Assembly (NCBI GenBank): GCA_022340805.1
Contig: JAJDNF010000030.1
Span: 62,001 to 126,000 of the forward strand
DNA: 64,000 bases
From: Chromatiaceae bacterium
GTDB taxonomy: Bacteria; Pseudomonadota; Gammaproteobacteria; Chromatiales; Chromatiaceae
Reading direction: 5' to 3'
Shown here: positions 22,808 to 33,713 of the stretch, piece after piece
Layout of the letters: every line of letters begins with the position of its first letter
Numbering within the stretch: position 1 is the stretch's first letter
Notes under the pieces: generated by a model
Told to the model about the DNA's origin: nothing
What the model saw: the letters and a program-made list of their open reading frames with translations, nothing else
Database searches by the model: none
Translations under genes and position numbers: made by a program

Positions 22808-23122
22808 TCAGTTATAGAGGTATTTCGGATTGCCGGCGTTGATCTGGCTGGCGGCCTGCTCCTTGCCGAGCATGCCCTGGGCCTCGGCCTTTTTCGCCAG
22901 CTCGACGGCATTGCCGAAATTGCCCTCTTCCGCGGCCTTCTCGGCAGCGCCGATCATGTCGCCGGTGTCACGCCATTCGCCACCCACGGCGGCAGCCTCC
23001 TTCTGGGCAGCCTTGGCGGCGCCGATCGCGGCCTCGGCTTCGGCCTTGTCGGCCGCGGACACCGTGCCCACGACCATAAGGCCCCCGATCAGGATGGCCA
23101 GCATCGATTTCTTGATTAGCAT
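22808..23122 (-). CDS. SoxXA-binding-like periplasmic protein
   Basis: 104 residues. Signal peptide 1-23 (KKSMLAILIGGLMVVGTVSA). The mature part is Ala/Glu/Lys-rich and helical, with GGEWRDTG at 47-54 followed by EEGNFGNAVELAKKAEAQG, the pattern of SoxXA-binding (SoxK/SAXB-type) proteins in thiosulfate oxidisers. Such proteins bind and stimulate the SoxXA cytochrome that starts thiosulfate oxidation. No sox genes are in the window, so the assignment rests on family resemblance. GGAGG lies just before the ATG. Confidence 0.6.
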   Translation of the reverse strand: MLIKKSMLAILIGGLMVVGTVSAADKAEAEAAIGAAKAAQKEAAAVGGEWRDTGDMIGAAEKAAEEGNFGNAVELAKKAEAQGMLGKEQAASQINAGNPKYLYN

Positions 23123-24295: not shown

Positions 24296-25537
24296 TTGTC
24301 TGAGTTGAGTTGTACACCGACGTTGGACGGGTTGCTGTCCTACGAAGACGCAGTGGACCAGCTGGTCGCTGCCGCGCGGCCGATCACGGAGCGGCAAAAG
24401 GTCGGTCTGCGCGATGCGCTTGGCTGGGTGCTGGCCGAGCCGGTGGTGAGTGCTATCGACGTACCGGGCTGGGACTACAGCGCGATGGACGGTTACGCGG
24501 TGCGCGCAGCTGAGTGTGCTGTGTCGGGCACGCTCCTGCCGGTGTCGCAACGCCTGCCCGCAGGGGTGTCGCCGCAGCCGCTCCGGCCGGGTACCGCGGC
24601 ACGCATCTTCACCGGGGCGCCGATACCCGAGGGTGCCGACGCGGTGGTCATGCAGGAGGTCTGCGAGGCGCTGGACGGGCAGGTGCGCATCAATGCCCGG
24701 GTACCGTCCGGCGATAATATCCGCCGGCGTGGCGAGGACATCCGCGCCGGCGTCGAGGTGATCGCGTCCGGCACGCGCCTGCTGCCGCAGCATCTCGGCC
24801 TGGCCGCCTCGGTCGGCGTCGCGGGATTCAGCGTTTGCCGCAGGCCGCGGGTCGCGCTGTTTGCCAGCGGCGATGAGCTGATCATGCCCGGCCAACCGCT
24901 TGCGCCGGGCAAGATCTACAATTCCAACCTGTTCACCGCGACCGGCCTGCTGCAGGCGCTCGGCTGCGAGGTGATCGAACTGGGCATCGTCGAGGACACC
25001 CTCGCGGCGACCGAGGCGGCGCTTGCCAGCGCCGCGGCACAGGCCGACCTGGTGCTGGCCTCCGGTGGAGTCTCGGTCGGCGAGGAGGACCACGTCAAAC
25101 CCGCGGTGGAGGCGCTCGGCTCGTTGGACCTGTGGAAGATCGCGATCCGCCCGGGCAAGCCGGTCGCGTTCGGCCATGTCGATGGCACACCGTTCATCGG
25201 CTCGCCCGGCAACCCGGTGTCGCTGTTCGTGACCTTCCTGCTGTTCGTTCGGCCGTTCCTGCTGCGCCTGCAGGGCAGGCCGGACTGGCGTATCCAGCCG
25301 ATGCTGGCGAAGGCCGATTTCGACTGGCCAAAGCCTGACAAGCGGCGTGAGTTCCAGCGCGCGCGCATCGATTTCGACGCGCGCGGCGCAGGCCGGCTCA
25401 GTGTTCATCCGAGTCGATCTTCGGGTGTCCTGAGCTCGGTAACCTGGGCCAATGGTCTGGTCGTGATCCCGGAGGGTGGTGTGCTGCGGCGCGGCGACGA
25501 GGTGGCCTTCCTACCCTTTAGTGAGCTGCTGACATGA
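24296..25537 (+). CDS. moeA: Molybdopterin molybdenumtransferase
   Basis: 413 residues. MoeA inserts molybdate into adenylylated molybdopterin. Motifs: the N-terminal SYEDAVDQLVAAARPI, AMDGYAVRA near 64, GDNIRRRGEDI near 140, ASGDELIMPG near 184, ASGGVSVGEEDHVKPAV near 245 and GSPGNPVS near 302. The start is TTG at 24296 with an excellent GAGGAGGT site (24282-24289); no ATG is suitable. Its stop overlaps the moaD ATG. Confidence 0.94.
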   Translation: MSELSCTPTLDGLLSYEDAVDQLVAAARPITERQKVGLRDALGWVLAEPVVSAIDVPGWDYSAMDGYAVRAAECAVSGTLLPVSQRLPAGVSPQPLRPGTAARIFTGAPIPEGADAVVMQEVCEALDGQVRINARVPSGDNIRRRGEDIRAGVEVIASGTRLLPQHLGLAASVGVAGFSVCRRPRVALFASGDELIMPGQPLAPGKIYNSNLFTATGLLQALGCEVIELGIVEDTLAATEAALASAAAQADLVLASGGVSVGEEDHVKPAVEALGSLDLWKIAIRPGKPVAFGHVDGTPFIGSPGNPVSLFVTFLLFVRPFLLRLQGRPDWRIQPMLAKADFDWPKPDKRREFQRARIDFDARGAGRLSVHPSRSSGVLSSVTWANGLVVIPEGGVLRRGDEVAFLPFSELLT

Positions 25538-25782
25538 TCCGGGTACTGTATTTTGCGAGTCTGAGGGATCGCCTGGGGCGGGCCGACGAGACGCTGTCCG
25601 AACGCCCCGCCACGGTGGCCGAATTGCGCGCCGCATTGGTCGCACGCGGCGGCATCTGGGGCGATGTGTTCGCCGATGGCCAGCGCGTGCTCGCGGCGGT
25701 CAACCAGGAGATGGCCAGCGCCGAACAGGTTCTCAACGAGGGCGACGAGGTCGGGTTTTTTCCACCGGTGACCGGTGGCTGA
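25534..25782 (+). CDS. moaD: Molybdopterin synthase sulfur-carrier subunit
   Basis: 82 residues, ubiquitin fold, ending in the required Gly-Gly (PPVTGG) that is thiocarboxylated to donate sulfur to the pterin. The N-terminal IRVLYFASLRDRLGRADE is typical. The ATG overlaps the moeA stop (ATGA); moaE follows after 19 bases. Confidence 0.94.
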   Translation: MIRVLYFASLRDRLGRADETLSERPATVAELRAALVARGGIWGDVFADGQRVLAAVNQEMASAEQVLNEGDEVGFFPPVTGG

Positions 25783-25801
25783 GTCGATGCGGGGGTAACT
25801 T

Positions 25802-26266
25802 ATGGACGTCGAGATCCGGGTGCAGGACACTCCGCTGGATGCGCTGGCCGAGACAGCGCCGGTGTTCGCGGGCCGCCCCTCGGTGGGCGGCGTGGTCAGT
25901 TTCATCGGCCTGATGCGCGATATCAACCACGGCGATGCGGTCAACAGCATGACCTTGGAGCACTATCCCGGGATGACCGAGAAGGCATTGGCGGCGATCG
26001 TCGACGAGGCGGGCCGGCGCTGGGATCTTCAGGGCGTGCGCGTGCTGCATCGGGTCGGCGAGATCAGGCCGCAGGATCCGATCGTGTTGGTCGCGGTGGC
26101 CAGCGCGCATCGCGGCGAGGCATTCCGCGCATGCGAGTTCATCATCGACTACCTGAAGACCCGGGCCCCGTTCTGGAAGCGCGAGCAGACCGCGGACGGT
26201 GGCACGCGCTGGGTCGAGGCGCGCGCCAGCGATGAGCATGCCGCGGCCGGTTGGGGTGAACCGTAA
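25802..26266 (+). CDS. moaE: Molybdopterin synthase catalytic subunit
   Basis: 154 residues. MoaE with two MoaD converts precursor Z (cPMP) to molybdopterin. Motifs: VGGVVSFIGLMRD, the MTLEHYPGMTEKAL region and AVASAHRGEAFRACEFIIDYLK, with the conserved lysine segment TRAPFWKRE. Third gene of moeA-moaD-moaE; a molybdoenzyme elsewhere in the genome (for example sulfite dehydrogenase or nitrate reductase) is implied. Confidence 0.94.
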   Translation: MDVEIRVQDTPLDALAETAPVFAGRPSVGGVVSFIGLMRDINHGDAVNSMTLEHYPGMTEKALAAIVDEAGRRWDLQGVRVLHRVGEIRPQDPIVLVAVASAHRGEAFRACEFIIDYLKTRAPFWKREQTADGGTRWVEARASDEHAAAGWGEP

Positions 26267-26323: not shown

Positions 26324-26512
26324 ATGACCTGGATTACGCGCAAGCGGGTTTGTCGAATATGCGGGGGCAGCGAACTGACCCGTTATCACCGCAGCCTGTG
26401 GATGCGCCTGTTCAAGCGTAGCCAGCTACTGCGCTGCCGCCAGTGCCGCTCAACCCTGCTTTGGCTGAGCGATGCGCAGCGCGGCGAGGATGTCAGTCCC
26501 GACCAGACCTGA
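26324..26512 (+). CDS. Small zinc-ribbon protein, function unknown
   Basis: 62 residues. Two CxxC pairs (C10/C13 and C38/C41) separated by a basic, aromatic stretch predict a zinc ribbon. GGGAGGGG about 10 bases upstream supports translation from the ATG. Its last 63 bases overlap, in antisense, the 3' end of the anti-sigma gene on the other strand. No family recognised. Confidence 0.6.
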   Translation: MTWITRKRVCRICGGSELTRYHRSLWMRLFKRSQLLRCRQCRSTLLWLSDAQRGEDVSPDQT

Positions 26513-27247
26513 GCCTGCGTCGCTGACTGCGGCCGCGGCCTGTGGCCACTGCACCGCCTCGGCGAGTCGCGCACCCATCCCTTCCAGCGGTTCGCCTTTT
26601 TCACCCACCACTGCGACGCTGCCCCAAGATGTCGGTACGATCTGTCCGGCGAAGCGTGCCGAACTGATCGGCACGACGTCGTCGATCATCTCGCCGGGCA
26701 TGTAGAACACCGTGATGGGGCCCGTCTTACCGGGCATCACCAGGTGCACGCCGGTGCGGTGGCGCATCAGGCACTCGGCGGCGAAGTTCACGGGGCCGAT
26801 ATTGTCGGCCAGTTGTGCGCCAAAGCGCTGGAATACCCATTTCACCCGTCCGCTCGACGCCGGCCCGGCCGCGCGCAGGTGTACCGCCTCGTCCTCGATA
26901 TGGTTGAGGACTGATTGTGCCAGCGTCTCCTGTTCGCGCTCGACCGAGGTCGTCCACAAGGAAACCATGCTGGCGCCGACCGCCAGCAGCACCGCTGCCG
27001 CCGCGCTGTACCACCAGCGGCGCTGGCTGGTCGCACGCTGATCAAGACGCCCGGCCAGCTGGATGCGTTCGGTCATCCCCTGCGGAGGGGTGGCGCTGTG
27101 CAGCAGCCGGCGCAGTTCCAGCTCCTGGGTGCGCATGTCGCGGGCAAACGGGGCGCAGCTCGGGCAGTCGGCCTCGTGTGCCTGCAGGTCGTTCTCAGTG
27201 GCCAGCGGGTCGGCCATGGTCCTGCGACGAAAGTCTAAACAATTCAT
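26450..27247 (-). CDS. Anti-sigma factor, DUF3379-like
   Basis: 265 residues. The N-terminal cytoplasmic part carries Cys3 and HEADCPSC (a ZAS-type zinc anti-sigma motif). One membrane helix lies near 82-100 (WWYSAAAAVLLAVGASMVSLW), followed by a periplasmic domain of about 160 residues. It resembles DUF3379 proteins paired with ECF sigma factors. Its ATG at 27247 overlaps the stop of the sigma gene (ATGA), so they are translationally coupled. The signal sensed is unknown. Confidence 0.8.
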   Translation of the reverse strand: MNCLDFRRRTMADPLATENDLQAHEADCPSCAPFARDMRTQELELRRLLHSATPPQGMTERIQLAGRLDQRATSQRRWWYSAAAAVLLAVGASMVSLWTTSVEREQETLAQSVLNHIEDEAVHLRAAGPASSGRVKWVFQRFGAQLADNIGPVNFAAECLMRHRTGVHLVMPGKTGPITVFYMPGEMIDDVVPISSARFAGQIVPTSWGSVAVVGEKGEPLEGMGARLAEAVQWPQAAAAVSDAGSGLVGTDILAALRIAQPKQG

Positions 27248-27747
27248 TGGCTTGCCTCCCACTGGGTGGCGCCGCCGAGGCGCTCGCGCATGCTCTTGCG
27301 GGCGCGAAACAGGCGGGTCAACACGGTATTGGTATTCAGACCCAGCATCTCGCCGATCTCGTTGCAGCTGAACCCGCCGATCACTTGCAGCAACAGCGGG
27401 TCGCGATACTCCGGCTCCAGCTGCGCCAGCGCCCGGCGCATTACAAAGGCCTCGGCGCTGGTGTCGTAGCCGCGCACACCGATTTCGGGGAGCTCGTTCG
27501 GGTCGCAGATGTCGGGGCGCTGGCGCTCGTACAGGCGCGCATGCTCGTTGCGCAGGATGGTGTAGAACCAGGCCCGTGCAGCCCTCGCATCCCGCAGATC
27601 GGTACGCGCACGCCAGCCGCGCAGCAGGGTTTCCTGTACCAGGTCTTCAGCGGTGGCAGCGTTGTGACACAGGCCCATCGCATAGCGGAACAGCTCGGGC
27701 GCGAGCGCACTTACCAGGGTGTCGAAATCTGTAGGTAACTTTGCCAT
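27244..27747 (-). CDS. ECF sigma factor (unit 1)
   Basis: 167 residues. Region 2 (about 10-75) contains AEDLVQETLLRGWRA and ARAWFYTILRNEHARLYER. Region 4 (about 105-160) contains LAQLEPEYRDPLLLQVIGG and the helix-turn-helix LNTNTVLTRLFRARKSMRERL. It directs RNA polymerase to stress promoters when released from the coupled anti-sigma factor. The ATG at 27747 is preferred to an adjacent GTG. Upstream lies a GGAAT element (27791-27787), a common ECF -35 core, suggesting autoregulation. Confidence 0.92.
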   Translation of the reverse strand: MAKLPTDFDTLVSALAPELFRYAMGLCHNAATAEDLVQETLLRGWRARTDLRDARAARAWFYTILRNEHARLYERQRPDICDPNELPEIGVRGYDTSAEAFVMRRALAQLEPEYRDPLLLQVIGGFSCNEIGEMLGLNTNTVLTRLFRARKSMRERLGGATQWEASQ

Positions 27748-27812
27748 CACACTGAAGACCGGAAAAGCGTGTCATTTATTGCGTCGATTCCTTACCTACG
27801 CGACGTGGACGG

Positions 27813-27880: not shown

Positions 27881-28363
27881 TCAGGGCTTGATGTATGCGT
27901 AACCCTGCGATTGCAGGATCGCCAGTTCGGCAACACCGCTGGGCACGATGTCGGCACTGTCGACCATGTACAGGTCGCGTTCCCGGTCCACCTGGCGGCC
28001 CTTCAGCGTATTTGCGCATACCTCGAAACGCACGCCCTGGTTCTTAAGGCCGTCGATCCTGGCCTCCATCTCGGCGGTTGCGTTGGCATTCTTGAAGCCC
28101 TTCACCTTGTCCAGCGCCTCAGGCAGCAGAACCATCGAGACACCGTTACCATGCATTACCACGCGAAGGTCAAGGTTATCCTTGCCCACCGCATTAATGT
28201 GATTCTGGATATTGCGCAGCGCTCCGGCCTGCTGCTTCGCGTCGTCACCATTGATGTGATAGACGACTTTTTGTTTGGTGTCGGCCGGTGCCGCCGCGGC
28301 GGCACCGGTAAACGCCATCAGGCCAACCAAACCTGCGAGTACTGCATTAATCAGCTTCTTCAT
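27881..28363 (-). CDS. Secreted DsrE-family protein
   Basis: 160 residues. Signal peptide about 1-25 (KKLINAVLAGLVGLMAFTGAAAAA), so periplasmic. The mature part has the DsrE/DsrF-like alpha/beta pattern: KVVYHINGDD, LDLRVVMHGNGVSMVLL, and a single cysteine, C116, in VRFEVCANTLKG, where DsrE-fold sulfurtransferases place their reactive Cys. The C-terminal half is similar to the periplasmic domain of the anti-sigma factor encoded just upstream. GAGGAG precedes the ATG at 28363. Likely role: binding or relaying sulfane sulfur, possibly the ligand or regulator of that anti-sigma factor (inference). Confidence 0.82.
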   Translation of the reverse strand: MKKLINAVLAGLVGLMAFTGAAAAAPADTKQKVVYHINGDDAKQQAGALRNIQNHINAVGKDNLDLRVVMHGNGVSMVLLPEALDKVKGFKNANATAEMEARIDGLKNQGVRFEVCANTLKGRQVDRERDLYMVDSADIVPSGVAELAILQSQGYAYIKP

Positions 28364-28412
28364 CTCTAACTCCTCTATTACTGCTCGGCGGCAGTTTGCT
28401 GGTGGGACCGGG

Positions 28413-29147
28413 CTAGCCGCGGATATACGACCAGCCCTGTTGTTGCCGATTGACAACATGGTTGACACCGGAATCGATGATTTCGGCGTCAGGGATCAGT
28501 TGCACCTCGATACCGCGCTCGACCTTCAATCGGTCGATGGTGTTCTTGCAGGCCACGAAGGTGAGATTGGAAAATTCTTCGGCCAGGCGATGGATGCGAG
28601 CCTTGTGCTGTGACAGGCCCTCGCGCAGCAGGTCCAGACCGTCGCTGTTACTTACTATCTCGACGCGCAGCCGGCGGTGATCCGCCTGGTACGCCTTCAG
28701 CATGCCCTCGACGTCGTCCAGCAGCTCACCAGCCACGGTCTGATCCGCATTGGTCAGGTGAAACACGATGCGGGTCTCGTCCCCGCTGGCCAGGGCCGGT
28801 GCCTGTCCGTGGCCGTCGGGATCGAGCACCACGAAGCGGCTGGTGTCCACGCGCCACGCCGGGCCGCCGGCATGCAGCAGCCAGCCACTCACGATCCCGG
28901 TCGCAAGCAGTGCGGCACCGGCCGCGAACGCGCGCCACGACGCTTTTACCTTGCCAGCCATGCGCCGTCGCGGTTGGGGCGGGTTGGCATACGCCACCCG
29001 AAGCTGTGCCTTGAGCTGCCCAAGTTCGCAAATCCGGCGTGCCAGCTCGGGATCCTCACGCATGGCCTCGAGCAATTCGGCCTGTTGATCGGGACTCAAT
29101 TCACCGTCCACAAAGGCATTCTGTTCAAGCTCGTCACTGGGACTCAT
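28413..29147 (-). CDS. Anti-sigma factor fused to a periplasmic DsrE-like domain
   Basis: 244 residues. Residues 1-65 resemble anti-sigma domains of the RsiW type (AFVDGELSPDQQAELLEAM, DPELARRI), but without a zinc HxxxCxxC. One membrane helix is at about 73-92. Residues about 100-244 form a DsrE-like domain: TRIVFHLTNAD, LRVEIVSNSDGLDLL, and one cysteine, C200, in FVACKNTIDRL. It aligns with the neighbouring secreted DsrE protein, including the tail (GVNHVVNRQQQGWSYI versus GVAELAILQSQGYAYI). GAGGAGG and an ATGA overlap couple it to the sigma gene. A sulfur-sensing membrane anti-sigma factor is my inference. Confidence 0.8.
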   Translation of the reverse strand: MSPSDELEQNAFVDGELSPDQQAELLEAMREDPELARRICELGQLKAQLRVAYANPPQPRRRMAGKVKASWRAFAAGAALLATGIVSGWLLHAGGPAWRVDTSRFVVLDPDGHGQAPALASGDETRIVFHLTNADQTVAGELLDDVEGMLKAYQADHRRLRVEIVSNSDGLDLLREGLSQHKARIHRLAEEFSNLTFVACKNTIDRLKVERGIEVQLIPDAEIIDSGVNHVVNRQQQGWSYIRG

Positions 29148-29707
29148 TTGGGCCTCCTCAGCGGTATCACATCGGCATGCCCTATACCCTGCTGTTCAAG
29201 GATCTCGCGCATCCGGCGCCTGGCGCGTGACAGCCGGCTCATTACCGTGCCGACCGGAACACCGAGGATCGCTGCGGTATCCGCATAGTTGAATTCGGCC
29301 AGATCGACCAGGGTCAGCACCTGGCGCTGGTCATCGGTAAGCATCGCGATCGCCGCGCGCGTGCGGACGACCAGTTGAGAGCTGTTTGCAGACTGCTCCG
29401 GATCATCCGGCGCCGCCAGCGCATCTGTCTCGAGCCCGGTCTGCGGCGGTGGGCGGCGAAAATGATCACGGTAGAGGTTGGCCAGAATCTGGGTCAGCCA
29501 GACCTGTAGCCGGCCTTCCTCGCGCAGACCGTCGAGCTTGGCGAGCGCGCGCGCGATGCTCTCCTGCACCAGGTCGTCAGCTAAGTGGCTGTCGTGGCAC
29601 CAGGACCAGGCGATACGGTAGAGCCGGTCGCGCTCCGCGCAGATCTGGTCGCGCAGCCTGCGGCGGCGGCCGAAACCGGCGAAAAGATTGGCGTGATGGT
29701 CGCTCAT
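29144..29707 (-). CDS. ECF sigma factor (unit 2, with DsrE anti-sigma)
   Basis: 187 residues. Region 2 motifs: DRLYRIAWSWCHDSHLADDLVQESIARAL and LQVWLTQILANLYRDHFRR. Region 4: AIAMLTDDQRQVLTLVDLAEFNYADTAAILGVPVGTVMSRLSRARRRMREIL. The ATG at 29707 is preferred to a GTG at 29713. First gene of the operon sigma, anti-sigma/DsrE, secreted DsrE. No Shine-Dalgarno sequence is visible; the putative ECF promoter would start transcription almost at the ATG. Confidence 0.92.
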   Translation of the reverse strand: MSDHHANLFAGFGRRRRLRDQICAERDRLYRIAWSWCHDSHLADDLVQESIARALAKLDGLREEGRLQVWLTQILANLYRDHFRRPPPQTGLETDALAAPDDPEQSANSSQLVVRTRAAIAMLTDDQRQVLTLVDLAEFNYADTAAILGVPVGTVMSRLSRARRRMREILEQQGIGHADVIPLRRPK

Positions 29708-29716
29708 AAACACTTA

Positions 29717-29741
29717 GACGCCGCGCGCGGCTGTCTATTCC
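29717..29741 (-). promoter_or_regulatory. Candidate autoregulatory ECF promoter
   Basis: On the minus strand GGAAT (29741-29737), 16 bases, CGTC (29720-29717), the classical -35/-10 pattern of many ECF sigma factors. Transcription would begin near 29709, leaving almost no leader before the ATG at 29707. Confidence 0.5.
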
Positions 29742-29785: not shown

Positions 29786-31810
29786 CTAGAGCCGCTCGAT
29801 CTGATCGATCGGTGGCTCGCAGTGCGTGCCGCGGCAGCGGTAGGCGAGTGTCCTGCCCGGCTCGGCACGCTTGTCGGCCAGCGCCGATGGTAGGTCGGCA
29901 GTGAGTTCCGGGATCGCGAATACGCTGCGATCGGGCCTGTACCCTGAGTTGGCGGTCCGCTGCCAGGCCGCTAATTCGGCGGTCGCGCCGCGGATCACCA
30001 GCTGTTCGGGTGGGTCGAGATGCCGGCGCAGTCCCTCCAACAGGCCTAGGTGCGCATATGGCGCGCGCTGGACGGCCGACCAGGCCGCACGCAGGGCCCG
30101 TTCAGCGCCTGCATGCAGGGCGCTGTCCCCGGTCAGCAGGGCCAGCGTCTGGAGCGCCTCGACTGCGACCGCGTTGCCGCTGGGCATCGCATCGTCGGTC
30201 AGGGGCCTGGGTCGGTGCACCAGGGTCTCGTGGTCATCCGAGGTAAAGAAGAAACCACCATTATCCGGGTCTTCGAAGTGGCTCAGCAGGCGCCCGGCCA
30301 GTTGCCGGGCGAAGGTCAGCCAGGTGCTGTCCCAGCGTGCCTGCAGCAGCTCGAGCAGCGCGTCGATCAGGTAGGCATAGTCGTCCAGGTAGGCATTCAG
30401 TCGTGCACTGCCGTCGCGGCTGCTGGCCAGCAGCCGGCCATCGATCCAGTGGTGGTCGTAAAGGTATTGCACGGCGCGCACCGCCGAGTCGATCCATTCG
30501 GGCCGCTCGAGCTGGCGTCCCGCCGCGGCCATGCCCCTTATCGCCAGGGCGTTCCAGCTGGCAAGGATCTTTTCGTCGCGCGCTGGGCGCACGCGCAATT
30601 CGCGTGCGGCGAGCAGTTTGTTGCGCGAGCTGAGCAACAGCTTGCGGATCGCGGCCGGCTCCAGGCCGGTAACCGCCTGGATGCGAGCCGTGTCAGTGTA
30701 GGTGTGCAGGTGCCAGCGGCCCTCGAAATTGGCCGCGCGATCGAGACCGTAGCGCGCGGCGAAGACCCTGTATTCAGCAGCGCTCAGCAGCGCAACGACC
30801 TCGGCCGGTGTCCACAGGTAGAAGCGCCCCTCCTCGCCTTCGCTGTCGGCGTCCAGGCTGGCGTAATAACCGCCCAGCGGCGACTGCATCTCGCGCATCA
30901 GCCACTCCGCGGTTCGCTCGCAGATGTGCCTAAACAACGGGCGTTGTCCGCTCGCGGTCCAGGCCTCGGCATACAGCGCGAGCAACTGGCCGTTGTCGTA
31001 CAACATCTTCTCGAAGTGCGGGATCATCCAGCGTTCGTCGACCGAGTAACGGCAGAAGCCGCCGCCGAGATGGTCGTTGATGCCGCCGTTGGCGATCTGC
31101 TCGAGCGTATGCAGCGCCATGTGACGCGCGGTCTGGTCATCGCCGCGCGCGCCCTCGCGCAACAGGAAACGCAGCGTTCCGGGGTGTGGAAATTTCGGTG
31201 CGCCGCCGAACCCGCCATGCAGCGCGTCATATTGGCCGGCCAGCTGGCCCAGTGCCTGGTGGATCGGTTCATCGTCGGGTTCACCTGTGGCCTGGGGCGT
31301 GTCGAGTTGCCGGAGCGCAGCGCGCAGCTGACCGTTCTGCTCGTCGATCGCGTGGTGCTGCTGCCGGTAGGCGTGCGCGATCTGGCGCAGCAGGTCGCGA
31401 AACGCCGGCAGGCCGTGGCGCGCCTGCGGCGGAAAATACGTGCCGGCGAAAAACGGCGCTTGGTCCGCAGGGGTGAGAAACACGGTCAGTGGCCAACCGC
31501 CCGGTCGGCGGGCGAGGAGTTGGTGGGCCGTCTGGTAGATCCGGTCGAGGTCCGGGCGCTCCTCGCGATCCACCTTGATATTGACGTACAGCGCGTTCAT
31601 CAGCTCGGCGGTGACCGGGTCCTCGAACGACTCGTGCGCCATGACGTGGCACCAGTGACATGCCGAATAGCCGATCGACAGCAGGATCGGCCGGTCCGTC
31701 TGGCGGGCGAGTTCGAGGGCCTCGTCGCACCATGGCCACCAGTCGACCGGGTTGTCGGCGTGCTGCTGGAGATAGGGGCTGGTCGCGTCGTGCAGGCGTC
31801 TGGCGGTCAT
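29786..31810 (-). CDS. YyaL-type thioredoxin-domain protein (DUF255)
   Basis: 674 residues, the usual family length (SPATA20/YyaL). The N-terminal thioredoxin-like domain (about 1-160) has RPILLSIGYSACHWCHVM with a CxxC at C51/C54. The remainder forms an (alpha/alpha)6-barrel like those of glycan epimerases/hydrolases. Conserved from bacteria to humans, but the reaction is not established. The ATG at 31810 fits the family start (RRLHDATSPYLQQHADNPVDW); a long in-frame extension upstream (to 32308) lacks similarity and is discarded. Confidence 0.9.
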   Translation of the reverse strand: MTARRLHDATSPYLQQHADNPVDWWPWCDEALELARQTDRPILLSIGYSACHWCHVMAHESFEDPVTAELMNALYVNIKVDREERPDLDRIYQTAHQLLARRPGGWPLTVFLTPADQAPFFAGTYFPPQARHGLPAFRDLLRQIAHAYRQQHHAIDEQNGQLRAALRQLDTPQATGEPDDEPIHQALGQLAGQYDALHGGFGGAPKFPHPGTLRFLLREGARGDDQTARHMALHTLEQIANGGINDHLGGGFCRYSVDERWMIPHFEKMLYDNGQLLALYAEAWTASGQRPLFRHICERTAEWLMREMQSPLGGYYASLDADSEGEEGRFYLWTPAEVVALLSAAEYRVFAARYGLDRAANFEGRWHLHTYTDTARIQAVTGLEPAAIRKLLLSSRNKLLAARELRVRPARDEKILASWNALAIRGMAAAGRQLERPEWIDSAVRAVQYLYDHHWIDGRLLASSRDGSARLNAYLDDYAYLIDALLELLQARWDSTWLTFARQLAGRLLSHFEDPDNGGFFFTSDDHETLVHRPRPLTDDAMPSGNAVAVEALQTLALLTGDSALHAGAERALRAAWSAVQRAPYAHLGLLEGLRRHLDPPEQLVIRGATAELAAWQRTANSGYRPDRSVFAIPELTADLPSALADKRAEPGRTLAYRCRGTHCEPPIDQIERL

Positions 31811-31935
31811 CGCGCATCCCGGCTGTGGTGTGTAGCGGCCAACATAAGCGCTAATGCGCCGCGGGCCAAGGACCTGGGCATCCGATACGTGCAAGAATGC
31901 GACGCTCCGTCCGCCTCTTGACCTGGAGTCTATCG

Positions 31936-32160
31936 ATGAAACCTTGGATGATTGCATTGACTGCCGTCGGCATCCTGCTCGCGGCGCAGTTCGCCCGGAC
32001 CCAGCCCGCCGAGCCGGCAGCGGAGCTGCGCGGCAAATACGAGGGCATCGGTGCGTCGGCAAACGCGGTCTGGGTGCTCGACACCCACACCGGCAGGGTG
32101 CGCAAGTGCACCCAGGAGTTTGCCGATCAGGCCCCGGCGTGTTCGGCCATGTCCAACTGA
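31936..32160 (+). CDS. Small secreted protein, function unknown
   Basis: 74 residues. A hydrophobic N-terminal segment (3-22) resembles a signal peptide. The mature part contains ASANAVWVLDTHTGRVRKC and a second Cys near residue 69, so a disulfide is possible. The VWVLDTxTGxVR motif is common in small periplasmic proteins that look like a single beta-propeller blade. GGAG precedes the ATG at 31936. Divergent from yyaL, convergent with the HerA-like gene. Confidence 0.6.
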   Translation: MKPWMIALTAVGILLAAQFARTQPAEPAAELRGKYEGIGASANAVWVLDTHTGRVRKCTQEFADQAPACSAMSN

Positions 32161-32204
32161 GCGACCGCCTGCCGGCGTGCGGCGCGCACACCGCAGGCAC
32201 GCCC

Positions 32205-33713
32205 TCAGCGGCGCCCGGTAATCGATCCCAGGATGCCCCGGATGATCTGCCGGCCGAGGCTCGAGCCGAGTGTCCGTGCGACCGACTTGGCCAGCGTTTC
32301 GCCGACACTCTGGCGGTTGCTGCTGCGCCGCTGCGCCGCCTTTTGCTCTTTCTCCGCCTGGCGGCGGCGCTCTTCCTCGGCCTTTGCGCGCTCAGCCTCC
32401 TCGGCTTCGCGCTGGCGTCGCGCAGCGAGCTCCGCGTCGCGCTTTTTCAGTAGCTCATAGGCCGACTCACGGTCGACCATCTGCGCATAGGCGGTCTTCA
32501 GCGGAGAGCGGTCGATCAGTTCACTACGGCGCGCCGCGTCGATCGGTCCGAACTGTGAGCGCGGCGGCGCGATGAGCGTGCGCTCGACTACGCTCGGCAC
32601 GCCCTTCGCGTCCAGCGTCGAGACCAGCGCCTCGCCGACCCCGAGTTGGCCGATCACCTCCTCGGTGTCGAATGCCGGGTTCTCGCGGAAGGTCTCCGCG
32701 GCGGCCTTGACCGCCTTGCGGTCGCGCGGGGTGAAGGCGCGCAGTGCGTGCTGGATGCGGTTGCCGAGCTGGCCGATGACCTGGTCCGGCACGTCGTTGG
32801 GGTATTGGGTAATGAAGAACACGCCCACTCCCTTGGAGCGGATCAGGCGCACCACCTGGGTGATCTTTTCGAGCAGCGCCTTGGGTGCGTTGCTAAACAG
32901 CAGGTGGGCCTCATCGAAGAAGAACACCAGGCGCGGAAGGTCCGCATCGCCGCGCTCGGGTAGCTGCTCCATGAGTTCCGACAGCAGCCACAGCAGGAAG
33001 GTCGCGTAGATGCGCGGCGAGTGATAGAGCGTGGTGGCATCGAGGATGCTGATCACCCCGCGGCCTGAGAAATCGTTCTGCATCAGGTGTTCGATACGGA
33101 TTGCCGGCTCGCCGAAGAAGATCTCCCCGCCAGCCTCTTCGAGCACCAGCAGGCGGCGCAGGATGGCGGTTACGCTGGCGCTGGAGATGCGGCCGTAGGC
33201 GCGCTCCAGTTCGGCGGCATGGTCGCCGATCCAGTTCAGCATCGCGCGCAGGTCCTTCAGGTCGAGCAACAGCAGGCCCTGATCGTCGGCAACGCTGAAG
33301 GCGATCTGCAGGATGCCTTCCTGGGTTTCGTTGAGTTCCAGCAGGTTACTGAGCAGGATCGGCCCCATCTCCGAGATGGTGGTCCGCACCGGATGGCCCT
33401 GCTTGCCGAATACATCCCAGAACACGGTCGGGCTCGCCTCGAAGACATGGCCCGCGAGGCCGATGAACTCGAGCCTTTCATCCACCTTCGGGTGCGATTT
33501 GCCGGCACCCGCGAGGCCGGACAGGTCGCCTTTGACGTCGGCGGTGAACACCGGCACACCGAGGCGCGAGAAGGATTCAGCGAGCACCTGCAGGGTGACC
33601 GTCTTGCCAGTACCGGTCGCACCCGTGATCAGGCCGTGTCGGTTGGCCATGCCGGCGTTGAGGACGATCTGTTTCTCGCCGGTACCGCCGAGCAGGATGT
33701 CATTGTCCGCCAT
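32205..33713 (-). CDS. HerA-like ATPase (DUF853)
   Basis: 502 residues. Walker A GATGTGKT is at 31-38 and Walker [13 protein letters not shown] near 262-273, with an arginine-rich sensor region [19 protein letters not shown] after it. The C-terminal 100 residues are highly charged with an Ala/Arg/Glu coiled coil. It belongs to the bacterial DUF853 group of HerA/FtsK-type ATPases, presumed DNA or macromolecule translocases with unknown substrate. GGAGAG precedes the ATG. Confidence 0.9.

Follow-up and report, generated by a model that had tools for sequence, protein, structure and literature searches.

Could an anti-sigma factor that carries a sulfur-carrier fold tell the transcription machinery that reduced sulfur has reached the periplasm? 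This question is raised by three genes in a 64,000-nucleotide stretch of a Chromatiaceae bacterium genome (GCA_022340805.1, contig JAJDNF010000030.1, positions 62,001 to 126,000 of the forward strand; hereafter the window), which encode an extracytoplasmic function (ECF) sigma factor, a membrane anti-sigma factor ending in a DsrE domain, and a secreted DsrE-family protein (Table 1). We propose that together they form a switch linking the periplasm to transcription of the genes for thiosulfate (Sox) oxidation, a reading that we consider probable as a whole, and switching on this oxidation is the most likely role of the ECF pathway.

The three-gene operon put forward in a preliminary description of this locus is real. 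All three genes lie at the positions given there on the minus strand, with a 4-base overlap between the anti-sigma and sigma genes, and the arrangement is not due to chance because the same gene set recurs across many genomes. The sigma factor is an ECF protein of the simple two-region kind, with sigma regions 2 (Sigma70_r2, 1.8e-11, 44.1 bits, cut-off 24) and 4 (Sigma70_r4_2, 4.7e-16, 58.6 bits, cut-off 25.7) as its only domains above Pfam cut-offs. Among 56 genomes (55 relatives and the window's own; genomes and loci carry our numbers, G and L), the fusion query P0002 matched in 25, and 20 fusion loci were compared (the window and L035-L053). Eighteen of these have an ECF gene in front of the fusion, the exceptions being L043, where no ECF was found, and L048, at a contig end. 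A secreted DsrE gene stands beside it in 17 (15 codirectional, 2 divergent), with none in the stretch read at L051-L053, of which L052 lies near a contig end.

The fusion also extends well beyond these relatives. Within a sample of 274 genomes of the class, 81 matched the fusion profile at 1e-10, and at least 56, from 37 families, encode the full-length fusion; these 56 were taken from the matches listed, excluding weak ones and the fusion fragments at contig ends in G124 and G292. Every one of the 27 best-scoring new loci (leaving out L155, L158 and L162, whose genomes were already in the first set) has an ECF gene on the same strand in front of the fusion; 25 passed an automatic distance test, which L159 and L184 fail because the longest anti-sigma reading frame starts too early. 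In the roughly 1.5 kb of flank read, the secreted DsrE gene is codirectional at eight, divergent at ten and out of view at nine. Both sets combined, the ECF gene precedes the fusion at 45 of 47 loci and the partner adjoins it at 35; far from never meeting, an outcome that the preliminary description had allowed for, fusion and partner stand together at 17/20 and 18/27 loci. G144 and G260 (L300, L301) carry two pairs of ECF and DsrE-anti-sigma genes in tandem, with a secreted DsrE gene on each side. A sample of 299 genomes across the phylum gave 11 matches at 1e-25. Three of them are full-length, one in the window's genome and two in further genomes of its class; eight are limited to the DsrE part, and at the seven of these eight whose loci were read no ECF match was present in the stretch covered. 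A related-locus search returned one weak locus only, and none of 21 plasmid records covered 80% of the query.

To characterise the two DsrE proteins, AlphaFold2 models were built as single chains from 19-sequence alignments. The anti-sigma model (overall predicted local distance difference test score, pLDDT, 81.5) has helices at residues 4-14, 19-31, 33-52 and 71-93, with a pLDDT of about 92 for residues 11-50. The DsrE fold that had been assigned to residues 100-244 was recovered within narrower boundaries: it occupies 123-244, at pLDDT >90 over most of its length, residues 94-120 being a mostly low-confidence linker. MTH1491 (1l1s) was the top Foldseek match (E 1.7e-9, target template-modelling score, TM(target), 0.89) and ST0148 (2pd2, E 1.2e-7) was also among the best, while the family profile matched 1l1s at 5.7e-20 across positions 126-244. 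The architecture first described, with an anti-sigma N-terminus, one membrane helix and a DsrE-like C-terminal domain, is supported. By model and gene order, this helical N-terminal domain and single membrane helix, encoded beside an ECF gene, have the layout of the class I type. The zf-HC2 family scored 13.9 bits in the window's N-terminus, under the cut-off of 22.2, and was matched in 5 of 19 relatives at E ≤0.01, with L050 above the cut-off (27.4 bits); the family profile matched no solved anti-sigma structure. Pfam DsrE had no match in the window's own anti-sigma protein and matched 4 of its 19 relatives at E ≤0.01 (best 1e-6). The domain is homologous to the secreted neighbour and has the same fold in the model, and the resemblance noted earlier is borne out by 27% identity over 142 columns (E 6e-13, two-sequence BLASTP).

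The secreted protein matches Pfam DsrE directly (PF02635, 1.2e-13, 51.7 bits, cut-off 22.7) and its N-terminus looks signal-peptide-like by eye. Its model (pLDDT 91.6) was matched best in Foldseek by 8uja (7.7e-7), a designed cage derived from a DsrE-like protein, along with DsrE-family entries. VIA-align gave Z 18.0 to MTH1491 (root-mean-square deviation 1.4, 111 aligned), 17.3 to ST0148, 13.3 to YchN (1jx7), 12.2 to DsrEFH (2hy5) chain B and 12.1 to TusBCD (2d1p) chain A, and only 6.7 for the best row outside the DsrE family; PHROGs yielded just two weak matches, to this protein. C200 of the anti-sigma factor and C116 of the secreted protein occupy matching alignment positions and do not vary in any of the sets compared: C200 in 20/20 and then 28/28 fusions (the 27 new loci and the window), whose DsrE halves hold no further cysteine, and C116 in 24/24 secreted proteins as well as in the 19-sequence alignment A2. 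The single shared cysteine of the preliminary description holds in numbering and alignment but not for the whole anti-sigma protein, whose cytoplasmic part holds another, C39, shared by 13 of 20 relatives. The C116/C200 position aligns with a cysteine in 1l1s and 2pd2, and we take it to be that of the sulfur-carrying Cys78 of DsrE and TusD. Of the marks of the DsrEFH/TusBCD sulfur relay, a persulfide on this conserved cysteine and a ring built from three kinds of subunit, the proteins here show the invariant cysteine. DsrE/DsrF-like proteins such as MTH1491, ST0148, YchN, TusBCD and DsrEFH, with which both proteins share their fold, are sulfur carriers or of unknown function, and we know of none that is part of a sigma/anti-sigma system.

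The sigma gene is predicted to have a conserved promoter of its own, of the GGAA/CGTC type. The motif GGAATA-N15/16-CGTC(T) precedes 15 of 18 orthologous ECF genes (pattern GGAA-N15..19-CGTC), and a weight matrix built from 16 sites before ECF genes (L049 left out) scored ≥13 before 24 of the 27 new ECF genes, with 0.13 expected from shuffles. Exact sites outnumber reversed controls in the nine genomes of the genus (32 vs 10) and in the 17 fusion-bearing genomes (55 vs 23), compared with 45 vs 52 in 39 fusion-lacking genomes.

Both gene content and promoters link this system to sulfur oxidation. The window's genome encodes soxB (870 bits), soxX (89.5 bits) and dsrA (647 bits), which supports the sulfur-oxidiser host assumed in the preliminary description, and the co-occurrence with sulfur genes that it asked about is pronounced: in the class sample, soxB (TIGR04486) is found in 55/56 fusion genomes vs 60/218 others (Fisher 4e-24, ignoring shared descent; 54/56 vs 58/218 when the sub-cut-off soxB matches of G133, G204 and G298 are excluded). 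G124, with its fusion fragment, also has soxB, and in G189, G300 and G200 the fusion and soxB lie about 2 kb apart. In a genome with no full-length fusion match (L137, G049:C6:13668-16184), soxB follows a secreted DsrE gene by about 290 bases on the same strand.

The sigma factor very probably regulates soxB. The motif precedes soxB in 10 of 15 fusion-bearing genomes, the window's included, and in 0 of 19 fusion-lacking ones (Fisher 2.3e-5), where fusion-lacking means without a full-length P0002 match, the profile search having covered few of these genomes; two of the 17 fusion genomes were dropped, G013, which has no soxB, and G033, whose soxB at a contig edge is partial. Matrix scores were 14.0-25.4 in the ten and ≤7.5 in all others, and the split was placed in this gap after scoring. 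Exact sites precede soxB in G002, G003, G004, G008 and, by position, G005, the identity of these genes as soxB being confirmed separately. The ten cases are not independent: seven of the soxB genes belong to one genus lineage, 82-100% identical to the query, and differing ones are found in the window's genome (53%), G017 (53%) and G043 (64%, another family). In G007, of the same genus, the sigma and anti-sigma genes are gone and their neighbours kept: a Thioredox_DsbH-like gene abuts the secreted DsrE gene, followed by a second ECF gene and a DUF3379-like gene (L136, sequence look). The profile search found no fusion in this genome, where soxB is not preceded by the motif (score 0.2).

Sites also occur before other candidate targets. 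We compared 40 sox regions, 20 from the 55 soxB genomes with the fusion and 20 from the 60 without, most from the top of the list (G036 and G053 also belong to the soxB comparison above). At a score ≥15, the fusion-bearing regions hold 22 sites (reversed control 5) and the fusion-lacking ones 3 (control 0). In three regions the sigma gene's own promoter is among the 22, and in several genomes soxX (named by its distance and the look of its sequence) and soxB of a single cluster each have a site in front. By eye, a site precedes soxB or soxX in 9/20 vs 2/20 regions, a weak comparison (Fisher 0.03). The motif also stands before a Sulf_transp gene in G116 (PF04143, 1.7e-70), before the divergent secreted DsrE gene at 9 of 10 such new loci and, as an exact site, before a secreted DsrE gene in G018 and before a further one, between amidase- and mutL-like genes, in G002, G003, G005, G006 and G008. 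Exact motifs precede SAXB (SoxAX-binding-protein)-like orthologues in G003 and G004, both of the genus (L037, 66.8 bits, below the curated cut-off; L040, by phmmer). We rejected SAXB as a general target, since exact sites occur in these two genomes only and the window copy has no site ≥12.5, and soxX control throughout the genus is not supported: only G017 (23.4), G098 (19.6) and G005 (14.1) among 19 soxX loci have sites ≥13. Sites at or within the starts of deaminase-like genes (by eye) were seen in G002, G004 and G006.

Several other genes surround the operon (Table 1). A second ECF gene and a DUF3379 gene lie directly downstream; among the loci read, this ECF gene adjoins the operon only in the genus, and by eye it has the upstream motif GNAATA-N15/16-CGGTCTT in the window, L035, L036, L037 and L042. 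Directly upstream of the sigma gene is a Thioredox_DsbH gene, a homologue of which adjoins the sigma gene also in G011, outside the genus. The molybdenum-cofactor-like genes are kept in most genus loci read. An outer-membrane-protein-like gene occurs near the fusion in L049 (11138-13126), L053 (11591-13033), L299 (2384-4268), L300 (7494-9660) and L301 (7584-9780), matching Porin_O_P at 7.7e-12 in L299 and 0.005 in L053, with no match in L300. It lies behind the divergent secreted DsrE gene in L049, L299, L300 and L301, and is preceded by the ECF motif in L053, L299, L300 and L301. G098 encodes an ECF/anti-sigma pair (L297, 2918-4221, minus strand) with a related anti-sigma N-terminus and a C-terminus that does not look like DsrE.

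Table 1 Features of the DsrE anti-sigma operon and its surroundings, in window coordinates.
Feature	Position	Strand	Basis
Predicted autoregulatory ECF promoter, GGAATA-N15-CGTCTAA, directly before the ECF start codon	29714-29741	minus	common motif of orthologues; score 23.5
ECF sigma factor, 187 aa, regions 2 and 4	29144-29707	minus	Pfam Sigma70_r2, Sigma70_r4_2
Membrane anti-sigma factor with C-terminal DsrE domain, 244 aa	28413-29147	minus	
Predicted cytoplasmic anti-sigma domain, helices at residues 4-52	28992-29138	minus	AlphaFold; zf-HC2 in relatives; ECF gene directly upstream
Predicted single transmembrane helix, residues 71-93, basic residues before	28869-28937	minus	model helix and sequence
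Predicted periplasmic DsrE domain, residues 123-244	28416-28781	minus	AlphaFold, Foldseek, profile search
Cys200 codon, only cysteine in the DsrE domain	28548-28550	minus	alignments
Secreted DsrE-family protein, 160 aa	27881-28363	minus	Pfam DsrE, model, VIA-align
Cys116 codon of secreted DsrE, aligned with Cys200	28016-28018	minus	alignments
SoxAX-binding-protein (SAXB)-like gene, ~5 kb from the operon	22808-23122	minus	NCBIfam SAXB 8.7e-22, 77.7 bits, below cut-off 95
Thioredox_DsbH (DUF255) gene	29786-32308	minus	7.1e-71
Second ECF gene	27244-27750	minus	
DUF3379 protein	26450-27262	minus	4.1e-46
Molybdenum-cofactor-like genes (moeA, moaD, moaE)	24296-26266	plus	by eye

In the mechanism that we favour, the cytoplasmic helical domain of the anti-sigma factor would bind the ECF sigma factor and hold it at the membrane, and the periplasmic DsrE domain would read reduced sulfur, most likely as sulfane sulfur or a thiosulfate adduct on Cys200, loaded either alone or via Cys116 of the secreted partner. 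This signal would alter or destabilise the anti-sigma factor and free the sigma factor, which could then transcribe its own operon, soxB and additional genes for secreted DsrE proteins; in certain genomes its targets would also include soxX, SAXB and a sulfur transporter. There is a good chance that sulfur is the signal for the anti-sigma factor, and we see the odds on sulfur chemistry at C200 as even. A transfer of sulfur from the secreted DsrE protein to the anti-sigma factor is suggested only tentatively, as is its fullest form, a relay in which the secreted protein would be loaded with sulfane sulfur by the Sox machinery of the periplasm and would pass it to the anti-sigma DsrE domain, the sulfur atom itself being the message. 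The sulfur-linked ECF control supposed in the preliminary description is strengthened by these results; that the cysteine senses sulfane sulfur and that the partner acts as a co-sensor or in feedback is what we infer.

A number of observations weigh against this mechanism. G089 has the fusion and G292 a fusion fragment at a contig end, with no soxB match in either; five of the 15 fusion-bearing genomes (G011, G014, G018, G019 and G035) have no soxB site, and 11 of the 20 fusion-bearing sox regions have none before soxB or soxX. Conversely, soxX sites without the fusion occur in G098 and, weakly, in G036, and the soxX of the window's genome has no site. The relatives are not phylogenetically independent. 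The soxB site of the window's genome (GGAATA-N15-GGTCT, score 18.3) has one mismatch, GGTCT for CGTCT, and is also similar to the -10 of the second ECF gene next to the operon. GGAATA/CGTCT is a common type of ECF promoter. In the window's 3.49 Mb genome the exact pattern has one copy, at the operon, and its reversed control also one, and in the 47 genomes outside the genus there are 68 exact sites vs 65 reversed controls.

The commonness of the motif is also where one alternative begins, in which the DsrE domain is a structural or interaction module without sulfur chemistry, the motif is generic and what acts at the soxB sites is a different ECF factor, perhaps the second one, whose related upstream motif recurs in several genomes; the G098 soxX site would fit this as well. 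We consider it improbable, since none of the 19 fusion-lacking soxB genomes has the soxB site, G007 keeps the second ECF gene and has neither the first nor the site, the second ECF gene adjoins the operon only in the genus among the loci read, and the domain cysteine is kept in all 47 fusion loci (20 + 27). That lone invariant cysteine would suit thiol redox sensing, and with a Thioredox_DsbH gene abutting the operon here and in G011, the system could instead sense envelope redox or electrophile stress from reactive sulfur, with C200 oxidised or disulfide-linked rather than persulfidated and soxB induced as detoxification. The near-universal presence of soxB in fusion genomes and the sites before soxX, soxB and Sulf_transp fit sulfur oxidation better than a general stress response, making this alternative unlikely.

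A stronger competitor, which we regard as possible though short of an even chance, makes the secreted DsrE protein the real receptor and a negative regulator: its empty form would bind to the DsrE domain of the anti-sigma factor and stabilise it in the manner of RseB, and sulfur loading would titrate it away. As production of the partner would depend on the sigma factor, the circuit would be shut off by feedback. It draws support from the partner genes, which share the operon or the motif (including 9/10 divergent ones), and from the homology of the two DsrE domains, whose fold matches include the DsrEFH and TusBCD complexes (2hy5, 2d1p). However, no partner was seen in the stretch read at 3/20 and 9/27 loci, and seven loci outside the class have a secreted DsrE gene with no ECF beside it; therefore, this type of partner also has other work.

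The fusion is widespread and apparently undescribed, as had been surmised: within one open-licence library, we found no open-access description of a DsrE anti-sigma system. One close likeness is to the RseA-RseB-sigmaE type, which shares an ECF gene followed by a gene for a one-helix membrane anti-sigma factor, an autoregulated promoter, and a periplasmic anti-sigma domain with a periplasmic partner protein. It differs in that here both domain and partner have the DsrE fold and an invariant cysteine, and in that Sox genes take the place of envelope repair among the predicted targets. Co-mentions of 'DsrE' and anti-sigma, as far as the accessible text goes, concern DsRed, or a sulfate-transporter anti-sigma-antagonist domain with separate co-occurrence of TusA/DsrE, and the accessible parts of papers on Arcobacter butzleri, Woeseiales and Congregibacter contain no such system. 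Class I anti-sigma groups have conserved fused domains, in an account whose main text does not use the word 'sulfur' (PMC7406223). In Sinorhizobium meliloti, judging by the accessible sections, RpoE1 and RpoE4 (ECF26) are sulfite-activated and RpoE4 controls the sulfite oxidase gene sorT; they are likewise ECF factors tied to the oxidation of a sulfur compound, with few targets including their own operons, but differ in having COG5662 anti-sigma factors and sorT rather than soxB as the target (PMC3511301). Sulfane-sulfur-responsive control of sulfur oxidation is described, in the portions available, for the SoxR and sHdrR repressors and SoxT1B of Hyphomicrobium denitrificans (PMC11582611, PMC10451225, PMC12423496), where repressors are served by a YeeE-like membrane protein, whereas here an anti-sigma factor has a predicted periplasmic sensor. 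The same portions of the S. meliloti and Hyphomicrobium papers do not mention a DsrE anti-sigma factor.

The sensing of external sulfur by regulators has been called poorly understood in the accessible part of one of these papers (PMC11582611), and the Sox regulators known from the literature found, to the extent that it was accessible, are repressors in an alphaproteobacterium. If the relay form of the switch is true, sulfur itself would release the sigma factor and activate soxB across sulfur oxidisers from tens of families. The DsrE anti-sigma factor would offer a defined candidate in the periplasm, along with predicted promoters of its targets, with which the question of sulfur sensing becomes directly testable.

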